From: Candidatus Omnitrophota bacterium
GTDB lineage: Bacteria; Omnitrophota; Gorgyraeia; 2-01-FULL-45-10
Assembly: GCA_003142795.1 (NCBI GenBank)
Contig: PLNN01000041.1
Coordinates: 6,286-43,784, forward strand
Direction: 5' to 3'
DNA: 37,499 bases
Every line of letters begins with the position of its first letter. The first letter of the stretch is position 1. The notes under the pieces are model-generated. The model saw only the letters and a list, made by a program, of their open reading frames with translations. It searched no databases and was not told the origin of the DNA. This document shows, in pieces, positions 18,646-36,361 of the stretch. A program made the translations under genes and the position numbers.

Positions 18646-18663
18646 AATGGCGTGGACGACGGG
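18646..18663 (+). repeat. Degenerate third copy of the tRNA-Asp att core
   Basis: AATGGCGTGGACGACGGG differs by one base from the att core at 19065-19083 and 33351-33369. It corresponds to the 3' end of tRNA-Asp and suggests an older integration or a duplicated end. The GIY-YIG cassette lies exactly between this copy and attL. Confidence 0.75.
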
Positions 18664-19021: not shown

Positions 19022-19065
19022 TGCTACGAAGCTTCATTACGGTTTAACTGCTGCAGCGAAGTAGA
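19022..19065 (-). repeat. Right inverted repeat of the GIY-YIG cassette
   Basis: This is the reverse-complement partner of 18664-18706: it begins TGCTACGAAGCT and ends GCGAAGTAGA, touching the first base of attL. Its central part contains CTGCAG, so each repeat can also fold partly on itself. Confidence 0.75.
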
Positions 19066-19083
19066 ATGGCGGGGACGACGGGG
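19065..19083 (+). repeat. attL core (19-bp direct repeat)
   Basis: AATGGCGGGGACGACGGGG is identical to 33351-33369, where it forms the 3' end of tRNA-Asp. Here it is an isolated fragment of the tRNA 3' end displaced by integration, so it marks the left boundary of the element. Confidence 0.9.
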
Positions 19084-22440: not shown

Positions 22441-22686
22441 ATGAAAGGCACAGTCAACTTTTTCTCAACGCAGGGGTGGGGTTTTATAAAGGGCGATGAT
22501 AAGCAGGATTATTACGTCCATCATACAGGCATTGCTACCGACGAGACTTTTAAAATGCTAATGAAGAATGAGGTTGTCGAGTTTGACATTCAGCCGACAG
22601 ATAAGCCCCGTCCAATGGCGGTAAATGTCAAAGTTACCAGAGTATATAAGAATGAGGAGAAGGCAAATGCAGACAGAAGTATATAA
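22441..22686 (+). CDS. Cold-shock domain protein carried by the element
   Basis: This 81-residue protein begins GTVNFFSTQGWGFIKGDD, the first strand and RNP1-like region of the CspA fold (usual KGFGFI replaced by QGWGFI), then DYYVHHTGI as the RNP2-like HxH region, and EVVEFDIQ. CspA-type proteins bind single-stranded nucleic acid. The gene directly precedes and overlaps the primase-helicase by 20 bases, suggesting a single-strand binding role in element replication or mRNA handling. It is slightly longer and more divergent than host CspA. Confidence 0.8.
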   Translation: MKGTVNFFSTQGWGFIKGDDKQDYYVHHTGIATDETFKMLMKNEVVEFDIQPTDKPRPMAVNVKVTRVYKNEEKANADRSI

Positions 22687-23947
22687 AGATACGGAGACGA
22701 ACACAAGCTCCGAGAATGAAGTTACCTTTAATCATAACAAGGTAGCAAGTAGTATTTTAAATCGCAATCAAATTATATATATCGAAGAGCAGGACGCCTT
22801 TTATATTTACAAGGATAACTATTATCAGAAATTTCGAGTGGGGCAAATAGGCAAGGAAATCAAAAGAGTTGTTGGGAATAAGTTTTCAAAACACACGCAG
22901 GCAGAGGTTATTAACTCGCTCAAGGCTGACGCCATTATTAAATTCGAGGACTTAAACAGCTCTTCGCTTTTGAACTTAAAGAATGGCTTATTTGACATAG
23001 CGTCCGAGACCCTGATTCCCCATTCGCCTCAAGTCAAAAGCACGATTCGCCTCAATGTTTCTTATAACAAAGATGCTAAATGCCCGAAGTGGCGGAAAGC
23101 AATCTCTGAGATATTGGAGGACGAAGGGAAAATATCGGTCTTTCAGGAATATTGCGGTCTATGCCTAACAAAAGAAACTCGCTATGCAAAGGCTTTGTTT
23201 CTGATCGGCGAGGGGGCTAACGGCAAATCAACGCTCCTTGCTCTCTTGGAGCATATCTTAACCTCGCTCAACGTCTCCTCAATACCGCTTGAAATGCTCA
23301 AGAATAATAACTACGTCGCAAATCTCTTCAATAAGCTAGTCAACATAAGCTTTGAAACGAACAGCAAAAGCGAGGTTTATGACGCAACATTCAAGTCAAT
23401 CGTTACGGGCGATTTAATGACAGCCGACGCAAAGTATGGACACCCTTTTGACTTTCGTCCGTATTGTAAACTGATTTATGCCCTCAACAATATGCCGAGA
23501 GTAAGCGACAAAACCCTTTCCTTTTACAGACGGCTTTTAATATTAAGGTTTAATAAGACGTTTGAAGGGGCAAGCGATAACAAAGGTCTCAAAGAGGAAC
23601 TCTTGACCGAGCTAGATGGCATTTTCCTTTGGTGCTTGGAGGGGCTTCGAAATCTAAGACAGAGAGGCGATTTTAAGCCGACAGAGGAAATGGAGCGAGA
23701 AGTTAAAGACTATCAGAGGGAGAATAACGCCGTCCTAGTCTTTGCGGAAGAGAAGTGCAATATAGATCCTAAGGCAAGCACTACAAAACAGATTCTATAT
23801 GACACCTTCAAAATCTGGTGCGAGGAGAACGGCCATAAGCCTGCGAGCCAAAGACACTTCACTAACGACCTGAAGAAAGCCTATCCGTCTTTAAAGGACG
23901 GACGAACGGAAGAGGCAAGGTTTTTAGAAGGTATCTGCCTAAAATAA
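22667..23947 (+). CDS. SF3 primase-helicase / replication initiator (D5/P4 type)
   Basis: I start at ATG 22667, after GAGGAGAAGG, giving 426 residues. An upstream in-frame start lies inside the cold-shock gene and lacks a ribosome site. Walker A is GEGANGKST at residues 181-189. The D5 N-terminal-like region precedes it (LLNLKNGLFDIASETLIPHS), and LIYALNNMPRVSDKTLSFYR RLLIL-type residues follow as the SF3 core with sensor and arginine-finger positions. The C-terminal part resembles the DNA-binding domain of P4 alpha-like proteins. No catalytic primase domain is visible, so it is mainly helicase and initiator. Iterons lie directly downstream, as in satellite Rep-ori modules. Confidence 0.9.
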   Translation: MQTEVYKDTETNTSSENEVTFNHNKVASSILNRNQIIYIEEQDAFYIYKDNYYQKFRVGQIGKEIKRVVGNKFSKHTQAEVINSLKADAIIKFEDLNSSSLLNLKNGLFDIASETLIPHSPQVKSTIRLNVSYNKDAKCPKWRKAISEILEDEGKISVFQEYCGLCLTKETRYAKALFLIGEGANGKSTLLALLEHILTSLNVSSIPLEMLKNNNYVANLFNKLVNISFETNSKSEVYDATFKSIVTGDLMTADAKYGHPFDFRPYCKLIYALNNMPRVSDKTLSFYRRLLILRFNKTFEGASDNKGLKEELLTELDGIFLWCLEGLRNLRQRGDFKPTEEMEREVKDYQRENNAVLVFAEEKCNIDPKASTTKQILYDTFKIWCEENGHKPASQRHFTNDLKKAYPSLKDGRTEEARFLEGICLK

Positions 23948-23964: not shown

Positions 23965-24091
23965 AAATGACGCAAATGACGCAAATGACGCTTCTTCCCT
24001 ATGTTATTACAGAAATCAAAATATATATATACAATAAGAAGATGTGTCATTTCTGTCATTTCTGTCATTTTAAGCACAAACTAAATGACGC
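23965..24091. other. Iteron replication origin with AT-rich core
   Basis: Three perfect tandem copies of AAATGACGC (23965-23991) face three tandem copies of TGTCATTTC/T (24045-24071), whose complement is (G/A)AAATGACA. A seventh copy, AAATGACGC, is at 24083-24091. Between the opposed sets lies an AT-rich core containing ATATATATATACA. Opposed iterons around an AT-rich melting region next to an SF3 initiator is the structure of satellite and phage origins such as those of SaPIs. A frame through it encodes CHFCHFCHF, an artefact of the 9-base period. Confidence 0.85.
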
Positions 24092-24115
24092 AACGAGGGG
24101 AAAAGAGGGAAAAAC

Positions 24116-24703
24116 GTGTCAAAACGACTTACAGAGAAAGAAAAGGAATTCCTCCGGCTCTATACCGACACGGGGAGCGAGACATTCGGAAATGGAACAA
24201 GAAGTTACGCAAGGGTATATAAACCTAAGAACAATAATGTGGCAGGCGTTATGGCTTTAAGACTATTAAGAAAGGTAAAGGTGAAAAAGTATATGGCAGA
24301 ACAAACGAAGGAATGGGAGCTGGATATAGGCAAGCACGTGCAAGCACTCGACGAAATGGTAAACTCACTCATTGACAAGGCAAAAGCAAAGGGAGGGCTG
24401 ACTATCGCCGAGTTGGAGAAGCTTGTTAAGCCGATTCGATTCTTTGCGGAGTATGCGGGGAAGGTTGGCTCAGGCAATCAAGTCAACATCGCAATATTAC
24501 AGCAGGAATGGAAGAACGGCTCTACTCGTCAATGTCCGACTTGTGGGTATTCGCCGATGGGAATGTTACGCCTTGAAGAAATAATGAAAGACCTTCCTCC
24601 GCTTAAGCCCATCATAAACACACAGGCACAAGTTGAGTATGAGAAGACGCTCGAGCCTCAGGCAAATTTAGATCGGGCAATGGTTACGGCGAAGGACAGC
24701 TAA
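24116..24703 (+). CDS. Probable terminase small subunit (TerS)
   Basis: This 195-residue protein starts at GTG after GAGGG. The N-terminal region LTEKEKEFLRLYTDTGSETF, then GTRSYARVYK, then VMALRLLRKVKVKKYMAEQ is the pattern of small terminase DNA-binding domains, where a helix-turn-helix is followed by a stretch ending in VKKYM. A helical oligomerisation-like part follows, with QCPTCGYSPMG near residue 140 as a single CxxC. TerS selects the DNA to be packaged. No large terminase gene is present in the element, so it would need a helper phage's TerL. A DNA-binding protein of another kind is the alternative. Confidence 0.7.
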   Translation: MSKRLTEKEKEFLRLYTDTGSETFGNGTRSYARVYKPKNNNVAGVMALRLLRKVKVKKYMAEQTKEWELDIGKHVQALDEMVNSLIDKAKAKGGLTIAELEKLVKPIRFFAEYAGKVGSGNQVNIAILQQEWKNGSTRQCPTCGYSPMGMLRLEEIMKDLPPLKPIINTQAQVEYEKTLEPQANLDRAMVTAKDS

Positions 24704-25411
24704 AATCGGTGCTTTATTATGTCGGGGTGGTAAGCACAGAATAAACAATGAAAAGGGCAGGGGGATTATTTACTATCTCTGGCTCGGCTCAAACATTGGC
24801 AGATTTTAGGAAGCCCGCAAAATCCCTCACAAAATAACAGGGCATTATCGCTAGGATTAGTTATACGGGGCGATAGGTCTTGGATAAGGATAACTTACGG
24901 ACAGGCTTTTCGGTAGGAGATCGTCTATCTGAGGGGCAATTAGAGGGTATTGGCAAGTAGGGTAAAGCAGGGGGCAGTAAGGAGTAGGCAGACAGGGCGA
25001 TAGGTGCTACAAGCAGGGCTGTAATAGCATTGGCGGGCAAGGACAGGCACTATATCGTATGTATGCTATGGATAGACTAGCCTCTACACACGCAAGGATT
25101 GACGTTCGGTCTTAATGTGAGCATATATATAGAAACAAGCCTTCAGCAGAAGACCCTTCACCCGCCCCAGACCCCTTGCTCTCTATGGTATAGTCAAAGA
25201 CATAATCGCCACCTATTCCCAAATCTCAGTTAGGAATAAATAGTCAGCTATTTACTCAGGGCAGGCTCAAGACACCTTAAACCGCCCGCCTCCGGCGGCA
25301 AACAGTTTGCTTCATTTAATTTATTCAAACAAGAGGGTGGCCTCATTCAAATCTTGAAGTTGAAATAATTTTTTGCGGGAAAATTTGAAATCTCAAAAAG
25401 AAAGGTGAAGT
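24704..25411. other. Long non-coding tract, 708 bp, between TerS and virion-like genes
   Basis: There is no frame of useful length with a start on either strand. The first half (about 24720-25100) is purine-rich on the plus strand with many TAG triplets. GGGCGATAGGT-like phrases occur at about 24870 and 24996. The second half has a perfect hairpin TAAATAGTCAGCTATTTA at 25237-25254, then CCGCC/GGCGG at 25286-25298 and GCAAACAGTTTGC at 25298-25310. Candidates are a packaging site (pac or cos), a structured RNA, a late promoter region, or the scar of lost packaging genes. Confidence 0.5.
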
Positions 25412-25597: not shown

Positions 25598-26488
25598 ATG
25601 GCAAATAAGAATTGGGGCGAATCCTTCGCCGAGAGTTTTTCAGAAGGTTTGAATAACGGTATGCGTATGGCTTTTCAAGGAACTCAAATGGCTCAACAGG
25701 AACGGCAAAATCAGATGATGATGGACGCCCGAATGTTTGAACATGGCTACGAGAGGATTGATCCTAAAGACAACGAGGAGGAATTGAAGCAGGCCATATG
25801 GGAGAAGAAAGCCGAAGGTTATCCCGTTGCCGGAGGTGGGGCGGTTGGTATTCCCATTGGTGGGAAAGCGAAAGACGGCATTATCTATGACGCTCAGGGA
25901 AATGAGAAGGGCAGTTACACAGGAGAAGCTCCTAAGCCCGTAAGCAATCTTGTTTCAGGCTACGGAAAGAACATCGTCCGTATAGGCAATCTTTGGTATA
26001 AAGCCCCCGATCCTTCTAATGCTGATGATATTAACTCCGTCGTGGAGAAATTGAACAAGTCTTATCAGGGCGGTGGCTCTTTTATTCCTTCAACAAAAAG
26101 CGTTGGTGAAGTTACTTATCACTATCAGCCTAGTATTGAAGAACAATATGGAGGTTGGAGACAGCAGAACGGTTTTCAAAACGCTCCTATACAACAAATG
26201 CCAATAGAGACGCCAATGCAAGCTCCCATTCAATCTCCCGTTAGCACAATACAGCCTCCTAAGGCAGTAATACAAATGCGTAATATGGTTAGTAACGCAG
26301 TTGCGGAAGGGGCTTCTCTCGAAGAAATTTTACAAGGGATTAAAGATGAGGGAATGAATCCGATGGACTACGCCGACTTACTCAAGCCTCTCATTTCAAA
26401 GAGACAGACTGCTCCCGTTAAGCCTCAATCTCCCTATAACTTAATCAACACTAAAGCGAGAAGCAATAACAAGAGGAATCTAATCTAA
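25598..26488 (+). CDS. Virion-associated-like protein with glutamine/proline-rich middle
   Basis: The protein has 296 residues. The N terminus is helical and methionine/glutamine-rich (MRMAFQGTQMAQQERQNQMM), like small internal or head-completion proteins of podophages. Residues about 185-225 are rich in P, Q, I and M in near-repeat form (PIQQMP, PMQAPIQ, PVSTIQPP), and the C terminus is helical. No enzymatic motif is seen. Its stop overlaps the ATG of the 872-residue gene by one base, so both are expressed together. Function is unknown, and structural or ejection-complex partner is an inference. Confidence 0.5.
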   Translation: MANKNWGESFAESFSEGLNNGMRMAFQGTQMAQQERQNQMMMDARMFEHGYERIDPKDNEEELKQAIWEKKAEGYPVAGGGAVGIPIGGKAKDGIIYDAQGNEKGSYTGEAPKPVSNLVSGYGKNIVRIGNLWYKAPDPSNADDINSVVEKLNKSYQGGGSFIPSTKSVGEVTYHYQPSIEEQYGGWRQQNGFQNAPIQQMPIETPMQAPIQSPVSTIQPPKAVIQMRNMVSNAVAEGASLEEILQGIKDEGMNPMDYADLLKPLISKRQTAPVKPQSPYNLINTKARSNNKRNLI

Positions 26489-29106
26489 TGTCTTGGTTTA
26501 AAGATAAATATGGAACTACCGAAACACAGGCGACGCCTGATCCTAACGTGCAGAGTGCGGTTGAAGAATATCACGCTGCACACGAAGACCCCTCGCTGAC
26601 AGAAGCTCTCCTCAATACCTTTAAGAGCGTTGCGAGCGAATCTATTCCCTCGCTAGTGGCAAAAGCAGGAACAGGCTTACTTGCCCCCGATGTTTTAATG
26701 AAGCTTTCTAACGCAGCAGCAGAAGAAAGCAAAAAGCCTCTAAGGAAACTTACTCAAGGCGTGGTAGATAAATTCTCCGATGAGACCGTATCTCCTGACA
26801 CAGCCTCAGCATTACTCAATAGCCCTCTTCCGGCAATGGGGGCAGGCCTAGCTGTCGGAAGTCAAATCTCTCCTCAAGCAGCCGTCAATGCTGCCCGTGA
26901 GGTCGCCATCGATCCGAGAACTTATTTATATGGTGGAATGAGTGCGGAGGGTAAGACTGCTAAAACCGCCGAAGAAGCTCTCGCCTTACAGACAGAGCCT
27001 CCGGCGATACTCCGTCAGGGACAGGCACTCCCTAAATATGCCGAAAATATAAACCTTAAGACAATGCCTGCCGATGTAAGACAGAAACTCTATGAGGTTG
27101 TCTCAAGCAATCCCTCAATCGGAATCACTCCTAAAATCTCAAACGCTGAACTTGTGCAAAAGGCGAGCGAACTTAAGGACACGCCTATAATAAATTACCT
27201 GACTAATCTCAAAGACGGCTCGCTAGAGGCAGAAGCTCTTAAACTCCGAATGGGAAACACTCAGCTTCTTAGAGACGCTCTTAAGTCAGACTTAACGGAT
27301 ATGAAAGGCTCTCTCGACGCAATTATTGAATCAGATGTTGCGAAGCAGAGAAAGGTTGCCTCTATCTTTGGGCGAGGACTTCAACAGCAGACTATCTCTC
27401 CCGAGGCACAGCAGGAATTGGCTTTTGCCATTGAGGATAAGATAAAAGCGATTAAGAGAGACCCTGCTTTTGGTAATGATAAAGAGCTAATTGGAACTTT
27501 GGAGAATCTTAGAAAGACAGTCATTAACCCTGCCTTTGAGCCGACAGCCTTTAATAAGGTCTATTACGTTTGGCTTAATTCTATTCTATCTTCGCCAATG
27601 ACGCATATAGTAAATACGACGAGCAATACGTTATTCGCCTTGAGTAAGATACCTGAGAAATTTGCCTCAAGTGTTATGGACTTGCCGATCTCTTTATTTA
27701 CGGGCAAGAGGACGCAATTCTTCGGCGAAATACCCGCAATGATTAAGGGGGCATTTAGTCGAGAAGCACTTCCGGCAGAACTAACACAGGCAGGCTCTAA
27801 GCTCGATGTTTATGCTCAGCCGATAAAAGGACTAGCCGGAAAGATAATCGGAACTCCGACAAACCTCTTACAGCTAGAAGATAACTTGGCAAAGAACGTC
27901 GTCGGGAAAATGGAACTCTACGCTCAGAGATACGCAGGGAAGACGGGCGATGAGTTGATTCAGGCCGTAAAGGGAGAACAGCTCTATCGAACCTTTCAGA
28001 ATGAGCCGACAGCACTTGCAAAAGGTTTAATGACGTTACGAAGTAAAGTGCCTTTCGTCCGTTATGTTGTGCCATTTCTTCGCACTCCATCGAACATAAT
28101 CGAAAGAGGGTTAGAGAGGACGCCTTTAATCTTAGGCAAGATGGCCTATAAGGGCGTGAAGGGAACTTACACTCAAGCAGAACTCGCAAAGGATATGGGG
28201 CTTCTCTCTATGTCTTCAATGCTTACAGGCTATATTGCTTGGCAGGTTGGTAAGGGAAATCTCAATGGCGACGCCCCAGAAGGAAAAGCTGAGAGAGACG
28301 CTTTCTTTAGACAGGGCAAGAAACCGAATAGCATTAAGGTGGGCGATTCTTGGATTCCGCTAGATCGCCTAGAGCCGTTTGGAACTTCATTCTCCACAAT
28401 AGCAAACTTAATAACAAAGTATCAATCTTCCGACAAGGACATACCCGCCGAGAAAGCAATGGACGCAGTTGCCTCTTTGGGTAAGACCCTAACGACGAAG
28501 AGTTATTTGTCGGGAATGACAGGGCTTCTTAAGGGCTTGAGTGATCCCGAACTCTACGGAGCAGGCTTCTTCCGCAGAACGGCGTCGGGAGCTGTCCCTA
28601 ACGCTCTTTCATTCTTTGCTAATCTCAAAGACCCTTATTACAGGGAAGCAAATTCTGTCTTGGATTATATGAAAATGAAAGTGCCTTTCTTAAGCGAGAC
28701 ACTCCCTCCGAAGTTAAACGCTTTGGGCGAGCCTGTAAAGAGAGACGTCCTTAATATTGGCAAAGCGAATGAAGACCCGTTGAATCAATTAGCGATAGGT
28801 TTTCCGTCAAAGAAGATAGGAGACGTTAAGCTATCGCCTGAGCAATATAATCAGGTCTTGCAGGAACGGGGAGCGATAATCAAGCCCCTCTTGGAAAAGA
28901 TAACCTCGAATCCCGATTGGTGGAATAGTTTATCGCCTGAGGCGAGAGATAAAATTATCGAGAACGTAACCTCGAAAGGTGGGATGATCGCAAAGAAGAA
29001 AACAAGAATGCAGATGGAAATGGAAGGTCGCAGGGGTTTTAACGAGTGGAAACAGTTTAAGAATTTCGGAAAGTCAAAATTTGCTTTGAAGTATGGCAAA
29101 AAATAA
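26488..29106 (+). CDS. Large internal-virion / DNA-ejection-like protein, 872 residues
   Basis: It has features recurrent in very large phage internal or polyvalent proteins: the segment WLNSILSSPMTHIVNTTSNT near residue 370, the segment RYVVPFLRTPSNIIERGLER near residue 524, alanine/glycine-rich amphipathic stretches (about residues 60-160), and a hydrophobic SMLTGYIAWQVG segment near residue 578. These resemble proteins that travel with the genome and enter the cell at infection. No catalytic motif is recognised, such as transglycosylase, protease or RNA polymerase. It is by far the longest gene of the element, and no head or tail gene accompanies it. Confidence 0.55.
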   Translation: MSWFKDKYGTTETQATPDPNVQSAVEEYHAAHEDPSLTEALLNTFKSVASESIPSLVAKAGTGLLAPDVLMKLSNAAAEESKKPLRKLTQGVVDKFSDETVSPDTASALLNSPLPAMGAGLAVGSQISPQAAVNAAREVAIDPRTYLYGGMSAEGKTAKTAEEALALQTEPPAILRQGQALPKYAENINLKTMPADVRQKLYEVVSSNPSIGITPKISNAELVQKASELKDTPIINYLTNLKDGSLEAEALKLRMGNTQLLRDALKSDLTDMKGSLDAIIESDVAKQRKVASIFGRGLQQQTISPEAQQELAFAIEDKIKAIKRDPAFGNDKELIGTLENLRKTVINPAFEPTAFNKVYYVWLNSILSSPMTHIVNTTSNTLFALSKIPEKFASSVMDLPISLFTGKRTQFFGEIPAMIKGAFSREALPAELTQAGSKLDVYAQPIKGLAGKIIGTPTNLLQLEDNLAKNVVGKMELYAQRYAGKTGDELIQAVKGEQLYRTFQNEPTALAKGLMTLRSKVPFVRYVVPFLRTPSNIIERGLERTPLILGKMAYKGVKGTYTQAELAKDMGLLSMSSMLTGYIAWQVGKGNLNGDAPEGKAERDAFFRQGKKPNSIKVGDSWIPLDRLEPFGTSFSTIANLITKYQSSDKDIPAEKAMDAVASLGKTLTTKSYLSGMTGLLKGLSDPELYGAGFFRRTASGAVPNALSFFANLKDPYYREANSVLDYMKMKVPFLSETLPPKLNALGEPVKRDVLNIGKANEDPLNQLAIGFPSKKIGDVKLSPEQYNQVLQERGAIIKPLLEKITSNPDWWNSLSPEARDKIIENVTSKGGMIAKKKTRMQMEMEGRRGFNEWKQFKNFGKSKFALKYGKK

Positions 29107-30245: not shown

Positions 30246-30632
30246 TTAGTGTTCTTCAAAATCCTTGATCGTTTTAAGTCCTTTGATATAAACCTTTTTT
30301 AGAGTTAATGTTTTGTCGTGTTTTTTTAGCTCTGTGAATCTTTTCATATCTTCTTCTGTTAATTCGAGTTTAACGTCGAGGGTAGTATCGTGAAGCGACT
30401 TTTTAACAGATTGCTCTAATTTGTATTTCTTCTCTAAGATATAGGCGTGAGAAATATTATTATCACCGAGAATATAAACTATACTTCTGATAACGGCAGG
30501 GGAGGGAAGCTTGTTATGTTTTTCTATTTGTGTGATATAGACAGGGTTGACGCTGATCCTCTCGGCTAATTCGTAAACCTTCAAACCCTTTGCCTGACGA
30601 GCTTCTCTTATAATCTGACCGAATCGTTTCAT
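30246..30632 (-). CDS. Xre/CI-like repressor
   Basis: This 128-residue protein has an N-terminal helix-turn-helix of the Xre family (IREARQAKGLKVYELAERIS, then VNPVYITQIEKHNKLPSP) and a charged C-terminal region without the S24 self-cleavage domain. It is the only minus-strand gene of the element and is divergent from a Cro-like gene, as in lysogeny switches. Its promoter ends 7 bases before the ATG, so the message is likely leaderless, as for lambda cI from PRM. Without a LexA-like domain, induction must come from something other than RecA-driven self-cleavage, for example a helper-encoded antirepressor. Confidence 0.85.
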   Translation of the reverse strand: MKRFGQIIREARQAKGLKVYELAERISVNPVYITQIEKHNKLPSPAVIRSIVYILGDNNISHAYILEKKYKLEQSVKKSLHDTTLDVKLELTEEDMKRFTELKKHDKTLTLKKVYIKGLKTIKDFEEH

Positions 30633-30727: not shown

Positions 30728-30796
30728 GCAGTATCAAGTAGGGCAAAGTTTTTTTTGGTTTGTAGCTCAAATAATAAATAAATGGAGGTGGTAAAT

Positions 30797-30988
30797 ATGG
30801 CAACGGCATTAAAATTGGAGCGGACGAGGCAGAACATTAAGCAGTATAGACTTGCCTCTCTAGTTGGTATCTCGCCCTCAGAGCTTAGTCTCTATGAGAG
30901 CGGAAGACAACGCTGTCCGGCAGATATGAGGCATAGGATAGCGGACGTGTTGAAGGTTAAGGTAGAGCAGTTATTCGAGGAAAACTAA
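30797..30988 (+). CDS. Cro-like helix-turn-helix protein
   Basis: I use ATG 30797 because GGAGGTGG at 30784-30791 fits it. The in-frame ATG at 30782 precedes that site. The 63-residue product is a single Xre helix-turn-helix (LERTRQNIKQYRLASLVGIS, then PSELSLYESGRQRCPAD, then ending VEQLFEEN). It diverges from the repressor and heads the integrase operon, so it is the expected Cro-type partner. It might instead be an activator of recombination genes. Confidence 0.85.
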   Translation: MATALKLERTRQNIKQYRLASLVGISPSELSLYESGRQRCPADMRHRIADVLKVKVEQLFEEN

Positions 30989-32033: not shown

Positions 32034-32221
32034 TGACTTGGGGAACAGCTAAACAAGTTTCAGAAAAGTTTGCGATACCATTATCAACAGTATATTACTA
32101 TGCGAAGACGGGGGATTTACCTTCAAAGCATATCGCAGGAAGAACAAAATATCCGTTAGACGTTATTGATAAGGACTTTAACAAGAGCGTAAAGGACAAT
32201 GCGAATACAAAAGTTTGGTGA
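32033..32221 (+). CDS. Excisionase-like helix-turn-helix protein
   Basis: This 62-residue protein has a MerR/HTH_17-type motif (GTAKQVSEKFAIPLSTVYYY, then AKTGDLPSKHIAGRTKYPLD), the form common to excisionases and recombination directionality factors. It overlaps the integrase by 23 bases, the classic xis-int arrangement. It should bend DNA at the attachment arms and favour excision. Confidence 0.75.
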   Translation: MTWGTAKQVSEKFAIPLSTVYYYAKTGDLPSKHIAGRTKYPLDVIDKDFNKSVKDNANTKVW

Positions 32222-33269
32222 GCCTTATAGGCGTAAAGATAGCCCCTATTGGTGGATATGGTATTACGACGCCATAGGTAAGCGTAGGCAAGAAAGCACG
32301 CAGACACAGGATAGGGGCTTGGCTATGAAGATTCTCCGCAGCCGGATAATGGAGTATTCACAGCTTAAGGGTGGGGTTAAAGAGACAAGCGATATGCCTT
32401 ATGCAGCATTTGGGGAAGATTATTTAAAATATGTAAAGGCACGTTACACCGCAGAAACTTATAAATCCTATAAAACCGCCGTAAGAGTTTTTAGTGATTA
32501 TCTATTGGGGCAGGGATTATCGAGATTATCAGATATAGACTACGGGCTGATACAGAGATTCATTACAGATCGCCGGAGCAAAGGCAACAAAGCGAATACT
32601 TGTAATAATTATATGAAGAATCTTCACGCTCAATTTGAATATGCGATAACTCAGAAACTTATGCCTCAAAACATAATGCCCATTAAATATTCAAAAATCC
32701 CCGTTACAGATTCAAAAGAGCCGAAAGCCTTAACAGAGGTTGAGTATAAAAGGATTATGACAAGGATTAAGACGGACTACCCGTATTTCTACCCGATATT
32801 CTATGTCTATTTCCACACAGGGTTAAGATTCACAGAACTAATAACTCAAGAATGGAAAGACGTCTTTCTTGATAAGGCATATTTAAGAGTTACAAGACCG
32901 AAAGGGAAAAGGAAAGGAATAGACACAGTTGATCTAAGCAATTCACTAATAAAGATATTTGAGAGTTTTAAGGGTAAGCATAAAACTTATGTATTTGTAG
33001 ATGAAAATAGAGAGCCTTTCAGTATGAGGACAAGAAAGTTTATAAGGCGTATTCAGGCGATAGCGAATGATCTAGGCATTGAAGGGGTAAACCTTCACAC
33101 TACAAGACACACCTTCGGCAGTCATTATATTGACGCCGGAGCGAGCCTTGAGGAGACGCAGCGAGCTTTAAGGCACAGGGAGATCAGAACTACGCAGAGC
33201 TACGTCCATAAGGTAAATCCGTCTCATTCACGTCTTACGGGCATATTGGAGAAGAAATTAAGGATATGA
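32199..33269 (+). CDS. int: Tyrosine integrase of the element
   Basis: This 356-residue phage-type integrase has a basic N-terminal arm-binding region (KFGEPYRRKDSPYWWIWYYD), a SAM-like core-binding domain (about 70-165) and a catalytic domain with R210 in HTGLRFTEL, H300 and R303 in HTTRHTFG, H326 in LRHREI, and nucleophile Y335 in QSYVH. All catalytic residues are intact. The gene ends 80 bases from attR in tRNA-Asp. The overlap with the excisionase gene and the arm-site pair at 33281-33300 complete a working recombination module. Confidence 0.95.
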   Translation: MRIQKFGEPYRRKDSPYWWIWYYDAIGKRRQESTQTQDRGLAMKILRSRIMEYSQLKGGVKETSDMPYAAFGEDYLKYVKARYTAETYKSYKTAVRVFSDYLLGQGLSRLSDIDYGLIQRFITDRRSKGNKANTCNNYMKNLHAQFEYAITQKLMPQNIMPIKYSKIPVTDSKEPKALTEVEYKRIMTRIKTDYPYFYPIFYVYFHTGLRFTELITQEWKDVFLDKAYLRVTRPKGKRKGIDTVDLSNSLIKIFESFKGKHKTYVFVDENREPFSMRTRKFIRRIQAIANDLGIEGVNLHTTRHTFGSHYIDAGASLEETQRALRHREIRTTQSYVHKVNPSHSRLTGILEKKLRI

Positions 33270-33350: not shown

Positions 33351-33369
33351 AATGGCGGGGACGACGGGG
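33351..33369 (+). repeat. attR core within tRNA-Asp
   Basis: This copy of the 19-bp repeat covers the CCA end, the acceptor strand and part of the T arm of tRNA-Asp. The element supplies this 3' end, so the tRNA remains intact after integration. Confidence 0.9.
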
Positions 33370-33429
33370 ATCGAACCCGCGACCTTCAGATCGACAATCT
33401 GACGTTCTAACCAGCTGAACTACGTCCCC
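33353..33429 (-). tRNA. tRNA-Asp (anticodon GUC), integration target
   Basis: On the minus strand the acceptor arms GGGGACG and CGTCCCC pair, the anticodon stem TCAGA/TCTGA encloses TTGTCGA with anticodon GTC, and the T loop is GTTCGATC-type. CCA is encoded, ending at 33353. The gene is complete, with its last bases contributed by the element. Confidence 0.95.
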
Positions 33430-33936: not shown

Positions 33937-34581
33937 TTGGAATTCATTAAAGGCATCATCGATTTTATAATACATATCGATAAACATCTTGCTTACATCG
34001 TCCAGAGCTTCGGTGCCTGGACCTACCTGATGCTATTTGGGATCATTTTCGCGGAGACAGGGCTTGTTGTAACGCCGTTCCTCCCCGGCGATTCGCTCCT
34101 TTTTGCGGTCGGCGCGTTTGCGGCTGCCGATGCTTTGAACATTTACTGGGCCTTTCTTATTCTGGTGCTGGCAGCCGTTATAGGCGACAGCGCAAACTAC
34201 ACCGTCGGGAAATTTTTCGGTGAGGCATTATTGCAGAAAGCCGGCAGCCGGTTTTTAAAGAAAGAATATATTGATCGGACGCACCGGTTTTTCGAAAAAT
34301 ACGGCGGCAAGACGATCGTTCTGGCCAGGTTCGTTCCGATAGTCAGGACGTTCGCGCCGTTCGTGGCGGGCTTAGGGAAGATGAGGTATGTGTATTTTTT
34401 TACCTATAACGTGATGGGCGGGATCCTGTGGGTCGCCATATTCGTTTTCGGGGGGTTCTTCTTCGGTAACCTTCCGTTCGTCAGAAAAAATTTCACTCTT
34501 GTCATATTTGCCATCGTTGTAATTTCAATACTTCCCGGAGTAATAGAATTTATGAGGCACAGGCGGGGAAAAGCTAAATAA
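33937..34581 (+). CDS. DedA family membrane protein
   Basis: This 214-residue protein has the DedA/SNARE-associated pattern: ETGLVVTPFLPGDSLLFAVG near residue 41 with its GDS motif, IGDSANYTVGKFFG near residue 87 with a second acidic site, and the RFVPIVRTFAPFVAGLGKM segment near residue 129. About five membrane helices are visible. Studied DedA proteins act as undecaprenyl-phosphate or phospholipid flippases, or in membrane homeostasis. The start is TTG with a strong AGGAGGGG site. It is convergent with, and overlaps by 8 bases, the cstA-like gene. Confidence 0.9.
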   Translation: MEFIKGIIDFIIHIDKHLAYIVQSFGAWTYLMLFGIIFAETGLVVTPFLPGDSLLFAVGAFAAADALNIYWAFLILVLAAVIGDSANYTVGKFFGEALLQKAGSRFLKKEYIDRTHRFFEKYGGKTIVLARFVPIVRTFAPFVAGLGKMRYVYFFTYNVMGGILWVAIFVFGGFFFGNLPFVRKNFTLVIFAIVVISILPGVIEFMRHRRGKAK

Positions 34582-36361
34582 CCGATTGCACGAAAAGCTG
34601 CTGCCGCATCAGGTATATCTTCCACAAAGAATCCACAAATACTATAACCACAAGCAGGATCATTATTATAGAAAGACTTGCATTCAGGTTTCCCTGGAAC
34701 GTATGTTTCGGCAGGTAATTATCCGTGATGTTCAAAATCCCGGCCGCCACGGTCGTTATGAACATAAAGATGGCCGGAACGAACGTTATGAGGCCGTAAC
34801 GCCATTTCCGCGTATGCCTGAGGATGTAGAGAGTGCCGATGGAGAGCGCAAGCGTGGCCAAAAGCTGGTTTGCCACTCCGAACATGGGCCATATAGTGGA
34901 TATGTCGCCGTTATAGACAAGATACCCCCAGAGGAGGCTTATAATGCCGCCCGTTACGAGCATATTGAATAAACTTTTGGAGCGGCCCCACCGCGGATTA
35001 CCCAACTTTACGAGTTCCTGCAGGATGTAGCGCCCGACCCGAGTTCCCGCATCAACGGTCGTGAGTATAAAGAGCGCCTCGAACATTATGGCAAAGTGGT
35101 ACCAGTAGCCCATCAAAGACTTGAGCCCCGGGATGGATGACAAAATAAGGGACATGCCGGCCGCAAGTGATACTGCTCCGCCCGCCCTGCCGGAGAGCGT
35201 TTCGCCGGTCATCCTTTCTATTGTATGGAGCTGCGATATGTGGAAGCCGAGTTTGTGGAAGACGCTGACCGGGACATTGATCGCGAAATAGTCGCCCGGC
35301 AGAAGCACTGTGGCCGCTATGAGCGCCATGATAGAGACGAATGATTCCGTGAGCATCGCGCCGAACCCGATCATGCGTATATCCGATTCTTTGTCTATCA
35401 TCTTAGGCGTCGTGCCCGAGGCAATGAGCGCGTGGAAACCGCTGATGGCGCCGCAGGCCACGGTTATGCATACGAACGGCCAGACCTTGCCCGGTATTAT
35501 AGGGCCGCCTCCGTGGATATATTTAGTCATTGCCGGCATTCGCAGGTGAGGATTGACGACGAATATGCCGATCGCCAGGAGAAATATCGTGCCGAGTTTC
35601 ATGTAAGAGCTCAGATAATCGCGCGGCGCGAGCAATAGCCACACAGGAAGGACAGACGCTGCAAAACCGTATATAGGCAGGATGATCGAGAGGGATGGTT
35701 TCGAAAGCAGGAAAAAATGGCCGAAGCCCGATCTTGCCAAAGGCTCGCCCAGGACGACTCCGGCAATTACCATGGCTACGCCTATAAGTGTCGCTTCTCC
35801 TATTTTACCGGGCCGAAGTTTATACATATATAGGCCGACAAATAAAGCGGCCGGGATGGTAACGGCAATGGTAAACGTGGCCCAGGCGCTTTCATTCAAG
35901 GCGTTTACTACGACCAGGGCAAGGCCGGCCAGGGCGGTGATTATAATAAACAGTATCGCGAATCCCGTTATAAACCCGGCAGGCTTACCGATGTTCTTCC
36001 TGGCAAGGCGCGTCAATGAAAGCCCTTTGGTCCTTACAGACGCGAAAAGTATTACGGTGTCATGCACAGCTCCACCCAGAACGGCGCCTATCAGTATCCA
36101 TAAAAATCCGGGGAGGAACCCGAATTGCGCGGCAAGGACCGGCCCTACGAGCGGCCCTGCGCCGGATATGGCGGCGAAGTGATGGCCGAAGAGGACGTAT
36201 TTATTGGTCGGGTGGTAGTCGCGACCGTCCTTGAACGTGTGCGCGGGGGTCGGATTTTTATCATCGAGAATAAGTATTTTCGTTATGATGAATTTCGAAT
36301 AGAAGCGGTAGGCAAGCGCGAAGACAAGAAGAGCGGTAATTATCAATGTTAAAGCGTGCAT
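34574..36361 (-). CDS. cstA: CstA family carbon-starvation / peptide or pyruvate transporter
   Basis: This 595-residue protein has about 16 membrane helices and typical CstA blocks: [20 protein letters not shown] near residue 36, [20 protein letters not shown] near residue 58, then [15 protein letters not shown] and a [14 protein letters not shown] segment. Members import peptides on starvation, and relatives (BtsT/YjiY) import pyruvate. It is shorter than E. coli CstA (about 700), matching the shorter CstA-like subgroup. The promoter at 36369-36397 places transcription start almost on the ATG, so it may be leaderless, and only a weak AAGG lies next to the start. The true substrate is unknown. 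Confidence 0.9.

Follow-up and report, generated by a model that had tools for sequence, protein, structure and literature searches.

Opposed 9 bp repeats behind a D5/P4-type helicase gene: a probable replication origin of an element integrated at tRNA-Asp in Omnitrophota

INTRODUCTION

The DNA analysed here is a 37.5 kb stretch (the window) from Candidatus Omnitrophota bacterium, in which a gene for a D5/P4-family helicase is followed at once by a short array of 9 bp repeats, and the array in turn by a gene for a small terminase subunit. The question raised by this locus is whether the repeats belong to replication, to packaging, to the control or structure of a transcript, or to a small protein encoded across them.

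RESULTS

Anatomy of the repeat array

23965–23991, + strand: left iteron arm, three copies of AAATGACGC at period 9, starting at 23965, 23974 and 23983
23992–24044, unstranded: AT-rich core holding ATATATATATACA (24021–24033), the presumed melting site
24045–24071, − strand: right iteron arm, three inverted copies at period 9, TGTCATTTC at 24045 and 24054 and TGTCATTTT at 24063
24083–24091, + strand: seventh copy, identified by sequence match to AAATGACGC, outside the inverted repeat

The original prediction had three copies facing three across an AT core with a seventh beyond, an exact 9-base period, and a position directly after an initiator helicase. All of this holds on re-examination: every copy lies where it was placed, base for base, the spacing inside each arm is 9, and the first iteron begins 18 bp past the stop codon of a D5/P4-family gene, which is where PICI-type origins lie, immediately 3′ of the initiator gene. 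The unit differs between the arms, the left being built of AAATGACGC and the right, when reverse-complemented, of (G/A)AAATGACA, and the two bases that follow TGAC are uniform inside each arm and unlike between arms. The core between the scored arms is 72 % AT, as against 56 % for the helicase gene. Matches to AAATGACNNAAATGACNNAAATGAC with at most one mismatch occur in the window as the two triples only, and none was found in 100 dinucleotide shuffles; it is the array that is rare and not the lone AAATGAC motif, which was seen 10 times in the window with 5.3 expected. The 18-mer AAATGACGCAAATGACGC is confined to the array site in the 1.94 Mb host assembly, where it gives two overlapping matches.

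The upstream helicase

22625–23947, + strand: D5/P4-family superfamily 3 initiator helicase, 440 aa, without an N-terminal primase domain (Pfam, PHROG, TIGR01613 and AlphaFold2 model)
23753–23944, + strand: C-terminal winged-helix domain, residues about 377–440, presumed to bind the iterons (from the secondary structure of the model; recognition helix about 409–419)

The helicase matches DUF5906 (1.7e-19), D5_N (2.8e-11) and Pox_D5 (3.1e-8) in Pfam, phrog_864 (DNA primase, 8e-97) among the PHROGs and, above the curated cut-off, the P4-family primase_Cterm model TIGR01613 (2.7e-68), and its Walker A motif GEGANGKS occupies residues 195–202, in keeping with a D5/P4 superfamily 3 domain. The AlphaFold2 model (pLDDT 91.1) has a winged helix at its C-terminal end, where Pfam places Pox_D5 (residues 365–420) and RFX_DNA_binding (370–427). 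By structure the model matches SaPI5 Rep (7om0) with Z 33.9 over residues 8–433 (410 residues, rmsd 4.7), and PriRep1 with dsDNA (7pds) scores Z 14.1. SaPI5 Rep (7ola) is also the closest solved structure by sequence (E 3.5e-23), and a match to 7ola at E 9.3e-25 supports a SaPI5-Rep-like fold with a C-terminal winged helix. By analogy with SaPI Rep, and with Cch2 as presented in the available text of PMC7581432, this winged helix would be the part of the protein that binds the iterons.

Among named genomes, those encoding the closest relatives of the helicase belong to Omnitrophota. Several Omnitrophota-like D5 helicases (those of the window, L015, L025, L106 and L150) are only about 420–450 aa long and lack the N-terminal part found in relatives of 710–820 aa. 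We note also that a cold-shock domain protein is encoded at 22441–22686, just upstream of the helicase gene and overlapping it.

The element at tRNA-Asp

19065–19083, unstranded: putative att repeat AATGGCGGGGACGACGGGG, left element end, a 19 bp exact repeat of 33351–33369
24116–24703, + strand: terminase small subunit (TerS), the next gene after the array (Terminase_2, 2.2e-7; phrog_51, 2e-10)
30246–30632, − strand: HTH_3 regulator (domain match)
30782–30988, + strand: HTH_3 regulator (domain match)
32199–33269, + strand: tyrosine integrase (Phage_integrase, 1.2e-23)
33351–33369, unstranded: putative att repeat, right element end, at the 3′ end of tRNA-Asp (33353–33429, − strand)

The array lies in an integrated element of 14.3 kb bounded by the 19 bp repeat. 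The element also encodes a small HTH_17/MerR-like protein, a resolvase and, at its other end, a DnaD/O-like HTH protein. A protein of 872 aa (26488–29106) matches a podovirus-type internal virion protein (PHROG, 1.6e-28), and a scan of viral_contigs gave no relatives of it; the proteins of the element that were scanned included no recognisable TerL or capsid protein. Two readings fit the element, a satellite and a reduced prophage.

About 700 bp after terS (24704–25400) have little coding potential and may be a decayed region; in the two other elements of the host genome described below, the TerL gene is located there. A second copy of the att-like repeat, 94 % identical, is present at 18646–18663, about 420 bp to the left of the left element end, and may be an older insertion scar.

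Arrays downstream of other D5/P4-type helicase genes

A first helicase scan with a single sequence gave one relative only. The survey sample comprises 174 loci with a D5 hit, grouped into 94 clusters at 70 % identity; before the count we removed two overlapping copies of the window's own locus (L001 and L002) as well as any cluster with less than 263 bp past the stop codon. Arrays were scored blind to their sequence, as two opposed units per side at period 9, weighted by composition and compared with 99 dinucleotide shuffles of each stretch. An earlier score with fixed G+C weighting was replaced because G+C-rich controls scored high too (a score of at least 38 in 80/165 downstream stretches and in 30/172, 33/158 and 32/148 controls).

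The original prediction had proposed a search for the opposed layout behind D5/P4-type helicases elsewhere, and the result is strongly positive. Just downstream of the helicase gene, 33 of the 94 clusters have an opposed 9 bp array at z of at least 4 (61/94 fall below), compared with 1/94 control stretches inside the gene, 0/92 at +500 to +800 and 1/87 at +1000 to +1300. When 300 bp windows were slid over 6 kb, z was at least 5 in 11, 25 and 13 clusters (n 93–94) in three windows around the stop codon and in 0 to 3 (n 65–94) in every other, the peak being restricted to −190 to +410 around the stop.

With 40 shuffles over the 94 clusters, arrays numbered 3 at period 7, 13 at period 8, 35 at period 9, 9 at period 10 and 0–2 at periods 11–15; the counts at 8 and 10 indicate that some lineages use those periods, and the best period of opposed repeats is indeed 10 or 8 rather than 9 in L144, L149, L151 and L033, and in L079, L035 and L114. 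Same-direction arrays at period 9 were fewer (18) than opposed ones. Arms selected by complementarity alone reach z of at least 3 in 31/94 loci (1 in the control stretch), and their self-identity is 0.449 at lag 9 and 0.225–0.275 at lags 4–8 and 10–15. Of 32 loci with cores of at least 15 bp, 31 have a higher A+T content between the arms than in the helicase gene (mean 0.67 vs 0.52), which we regard as supporting evidence only, since intergenic DNA tends to be AT-rich anyway.

Among the 50 loci listed, inspection by eye showed two with longer symmetric arrays, arranged +++ - ++ on one side and -- + --- on the other: L039 has this pattern in full and L164 nearly in full. Such arrays, with six sites per side, occur in some deltaproteobacterial and viral loci. 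Six sites per side would fit one hexamer on each side.

Covariation between helicase and iterons was measured at 56 loci, where the winged helix gave a partial rank correlation of 0.086 (permutation p 0.02) and the ATPase part a stronger one of 0.158 (p 0.002); being weak and no better than that of the ATPase part, the winged-helix signal was discarded as support. A match of individual iteron bases to residues of the recognition helix, viewed by eye in the Omnitrophota group, is confounded by kinship and was likewise set aside.

Close relatives keep the layout and change the repeat

Two further D5 helicases are encoded in the host genome, by L022 (56 % identity) and L024 (52 %), and in both of these co-resident elements the helicase gene is followed by a small ORF without a PHROG match and then by a clear terminase large subunit gene. 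L024 has repeats of TTTGACCAA type facing each other downstream of the helicase gene. The units of L022 (G000:C40) are unlike one another, of AAATGCGAC type on the left and TTTGACAGA on the right, and this origin is perhaps a hybrid or decaying one.

In other Omnitrophota-like loci the units are TACTGACGA (L015), TAATGACAGC/TATGACGAT (L016), GAATGACAA (L017), AATGACAAG (L025) and TTCTGACCAT (L106). Directly behind the helicase gene they flank an AT-rich stretch, and in several loci they overlap the stop codon of the gene. The repeat sequence thus differs between lineages while the layout persists. The expectation that close relatives retaining the helicase would also retain repeats is borne out for 10 of the 14 testable Omnitrophota-like loci, the window's own counted, which reach z of at least 4 at period 9 (L014, L015, L016, L017, L022, L024, L025, L026, L027 and L106), and not for the other four, which stay below it (L031, L107, L108 and L150). 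In L150 TGACGT repeats are visible by eye, and its score at period 8 is 4.6.

Annotated phage origins and a scan with the bare repeat

Two phages carry an annotated origin at the corresponding place. In Lactobacillus phage A2 (AJ251789) the rep_origin feature (32208–32717) overlaps the end of the primase gene, and in Streptococcus phage Sfi21 (NC_000872) the origin (34487–34784) overlaps the end of orf382; both have opposed repeats about an AT core, with a best period of 8 and z of 4.2 (A2) and 6.9 (Sfi21). Staphylococcus epidermidis phage PI-Sepi-HH2 is positive at period 9 (z 6.2). These three are the positives among ten named phage and prophage loci tested; Paenibacillus LincolnB scores low and has repeats visible by eye, and arrays are absent from the other six (Oceanotoga, 9NA, Listeria P35, Mycoplasmopsis, Proteus and Vibrio).

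A blind scan of IMG/VR with the 18-mer alone as query found it at 10 loci. In two of them (L006 and L012) it stands directly downstream of further DUF5906 helicase genes, whose products are too distant for the survey profile to detect; the 9-mer AAATGACGC is common to these loci and the window, the units pointing away from the core in the former and toward it in the latter. In L004, L007 and L008 repeats of AAATGACGC type lie upstream of the start of a primase ORF, of 774 aa in L004 and L007 and cut in L008; the L007 protein, the one scanned for domains, has BT4734-like_N and PriCT_1. In L010 and L011 the 18-mer lies within a coding frame, a 174 aa ORF, and the remaining loci are L005, L009 and L013.

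DISCUSSION

Alternative explanations

Repeated sites for the small terminase subunit are usual near terS in phages, and terS is here the next gene, starting 25 bp past the seventh copy, which speaks for a cosB- or pac-like site bound by TerS. We nevertheless consider such a site unlikely, since the arrays follow the helicase stop codon and not terS: of the 32 array-positive loci scanned, no more than two encode Terminase_2 next, the other next genes being those for integrases, resolvases, Mob_Pre, NikA-like and Fic proteins and unknowns. (The scan covered 32 of the 33 such loci; for L022 the ORF picked was antisense, and its real next ORFs were read separately.) In Sfi21, moreover, the cos site is about 6 kb from the annotated origin, with terS at the opposite end of that sequence. 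The same lack of relationship among the next genes weighs against an operator, in which the iterons would be sites for a regulator of terS and the genes that follow, perhaps the helicase itself, without any origin function. Symmetric arms about an AT-rich core and the likeness to annotated origins also favour an origin, and we rate the operator slightly below the terminase site, although the array does lie between two co-directional genes and contains two weak sigma-70-like core matches, at chance level (2 found, 1.2 expected). The readings are not exclusive, and an iteron origin may act as an operator too.

The inverted arms could also form a structure in the transcript, be it a terminator, an attenuator or a processing signal, and the predicted fold is strong (−37.8 kcal/mol, z −3.9), but any inverted repeat folds. 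Pairing does not require the lone lag-9 periodicity found in complementarity-selected arms, nor does it account for a seventh copy outside the repeat pair, or for arms that are uniform within themselves and mismatched to each other after TGAC. A terminator scan gave no match in the array, and the only RNA models hit were two plant/animal miRNA models, far below their gathering scores and taken as chance; an RNA hairpin is in our estimate less probable again than the operator. Least probable of all is a coding repeat. An open frame (23967–24260, 97 aa) with CHFCHFCHF does cross the array, and coding repeats of this kind exist, as in the 174 aa ORF of L010 and L011, but this frame runs into terS in another phase, and close relatives have no conserved frame. 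It had been flagged as spurious from the outset, and we agree that the frame is most unlikely to be a real gene, because it is without a match in 50,697 phage records and the repeat sequence is replaced in relatives.

A model for the origin

The window matches PICIs in anatomy and in protein fold, and we therefore conclude that the 14.3 kb element very probably has its replication origin in these repeats, to which the upstream helicase would bind. Taken with the association of such arrays with the helicase gene in many lineages, the 9 bp period and the AT-rich core, all directly observed, the best reading is a self-loading-helicase Rep–ori module of the PICI/Sfi21 type in an Omnitrophota element at tRNA-Asp. 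The helicase encoded just upstream would bind the 9 bp iterons of both arms through its C-terminal winged helix and assemble on them, probably in the form of two hexamers with one on each arm; it would then melt the AT core between the arms, and replication would start there, probably in both directions. Binding, hexamer number, melting and direction are all inferred. Several results weigh against this reading: 61 of the 94 clusters fall below the threshold, six of the ten named phage and prophage loci lack arrays, the covariation signal of the winged helix was weak, the L022 units are unlike one another, and the shared 9-mer has reversed polarity in L006 and L012.

The likeness to satellite Rep–ori modules in the original prediction stands as regards anatomy, which is that of the annotated A2 and Sfi21 origins; what does not stand is any restriction to satellites, since the layout goes with the helicase and is also found in phages and other elements. 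The kind of origin is thus already known, and it is its breadth beyond satellites that is of interest. We found no survey of the opposed-repeat layout across D5 helicases outside PICIs in the openly readable literature, although we do not claim the layout outside PICIs as a discovery, because the Sfi21 and A2 annotations had already made it visible.

It is possible, and we put it forward tentatively, that the 9-mer is replaced rapidly, whereas the pitch of 9 bp and the geometry are set by the helicase, with 3+1+2 sites per side in some lineages and so one site for each subunit of a hexamer; the three elements of the host genome would hence have three different repeats, avoiding cross-initiation. 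If so, sequence alone would be enough to recognise an origin and its specificity. For the present locus the analysis predicts where replication of an element from an uncultured phylum begins. Searching the DNA directly behind D5-type helicase genes for opposed 9 bp repeats is a simple rule, and it yields candidate origins in elements of very different kinds. Should the winged helix set the 9-mer, these loci would form a natural set of many helicase–iteron pairs, of use for recognition rules, plasmid compatibility and minimal replicons.

Comparison with known systems

The alpha protein of phage P4 shares with the window helicase a family name and iteron recognition, although the layout of P4 ori and crr differs from that of the window array. 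The Sfi21 and A2 origins start at the end of a P4-type primase/helicase gene and have opposed short repeats about an AT-rich core; they differ in repeat period (8) and sequence, and in belonging to full phages. In SCCmec, Cch2 is likewise a D5_N/Primase_Cterm helicase with repeats downstream of its own gene, to which its C-terminal domain binds, but according to the accessible part of that study (PMC7581432) there are three iterons only, and direct repeats are needed for binding while inverted repeats are dispensable.

There is a likeness in anatomy and fold to the PICIs and SaPIs. The available text of PMC6092414 places PICI origins just 3′ of rep, with an AT-rich region between two sets of iterons; for a plasmid to be maintained efficiently, both rep and ori are required. 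The window element differs in its repeat sequence, in its 440 aa helicase without an N-terminal primase domain, in its Omnitrophota host and in its one podovirus-type internal virion protein, PICIs being said in the sources available to be without phage structural or lytic genes. It resembles them, as far as those sources describe them, in its size of about 15 kb, its integrase and specific att site at a tRNA, its HTH repressors and its terS (present in some PICIs) and, at the origin itself, in a D5-type helicase with a C-terminal winged helix and two iteron sets about an AT-rich region 3′ of rep.
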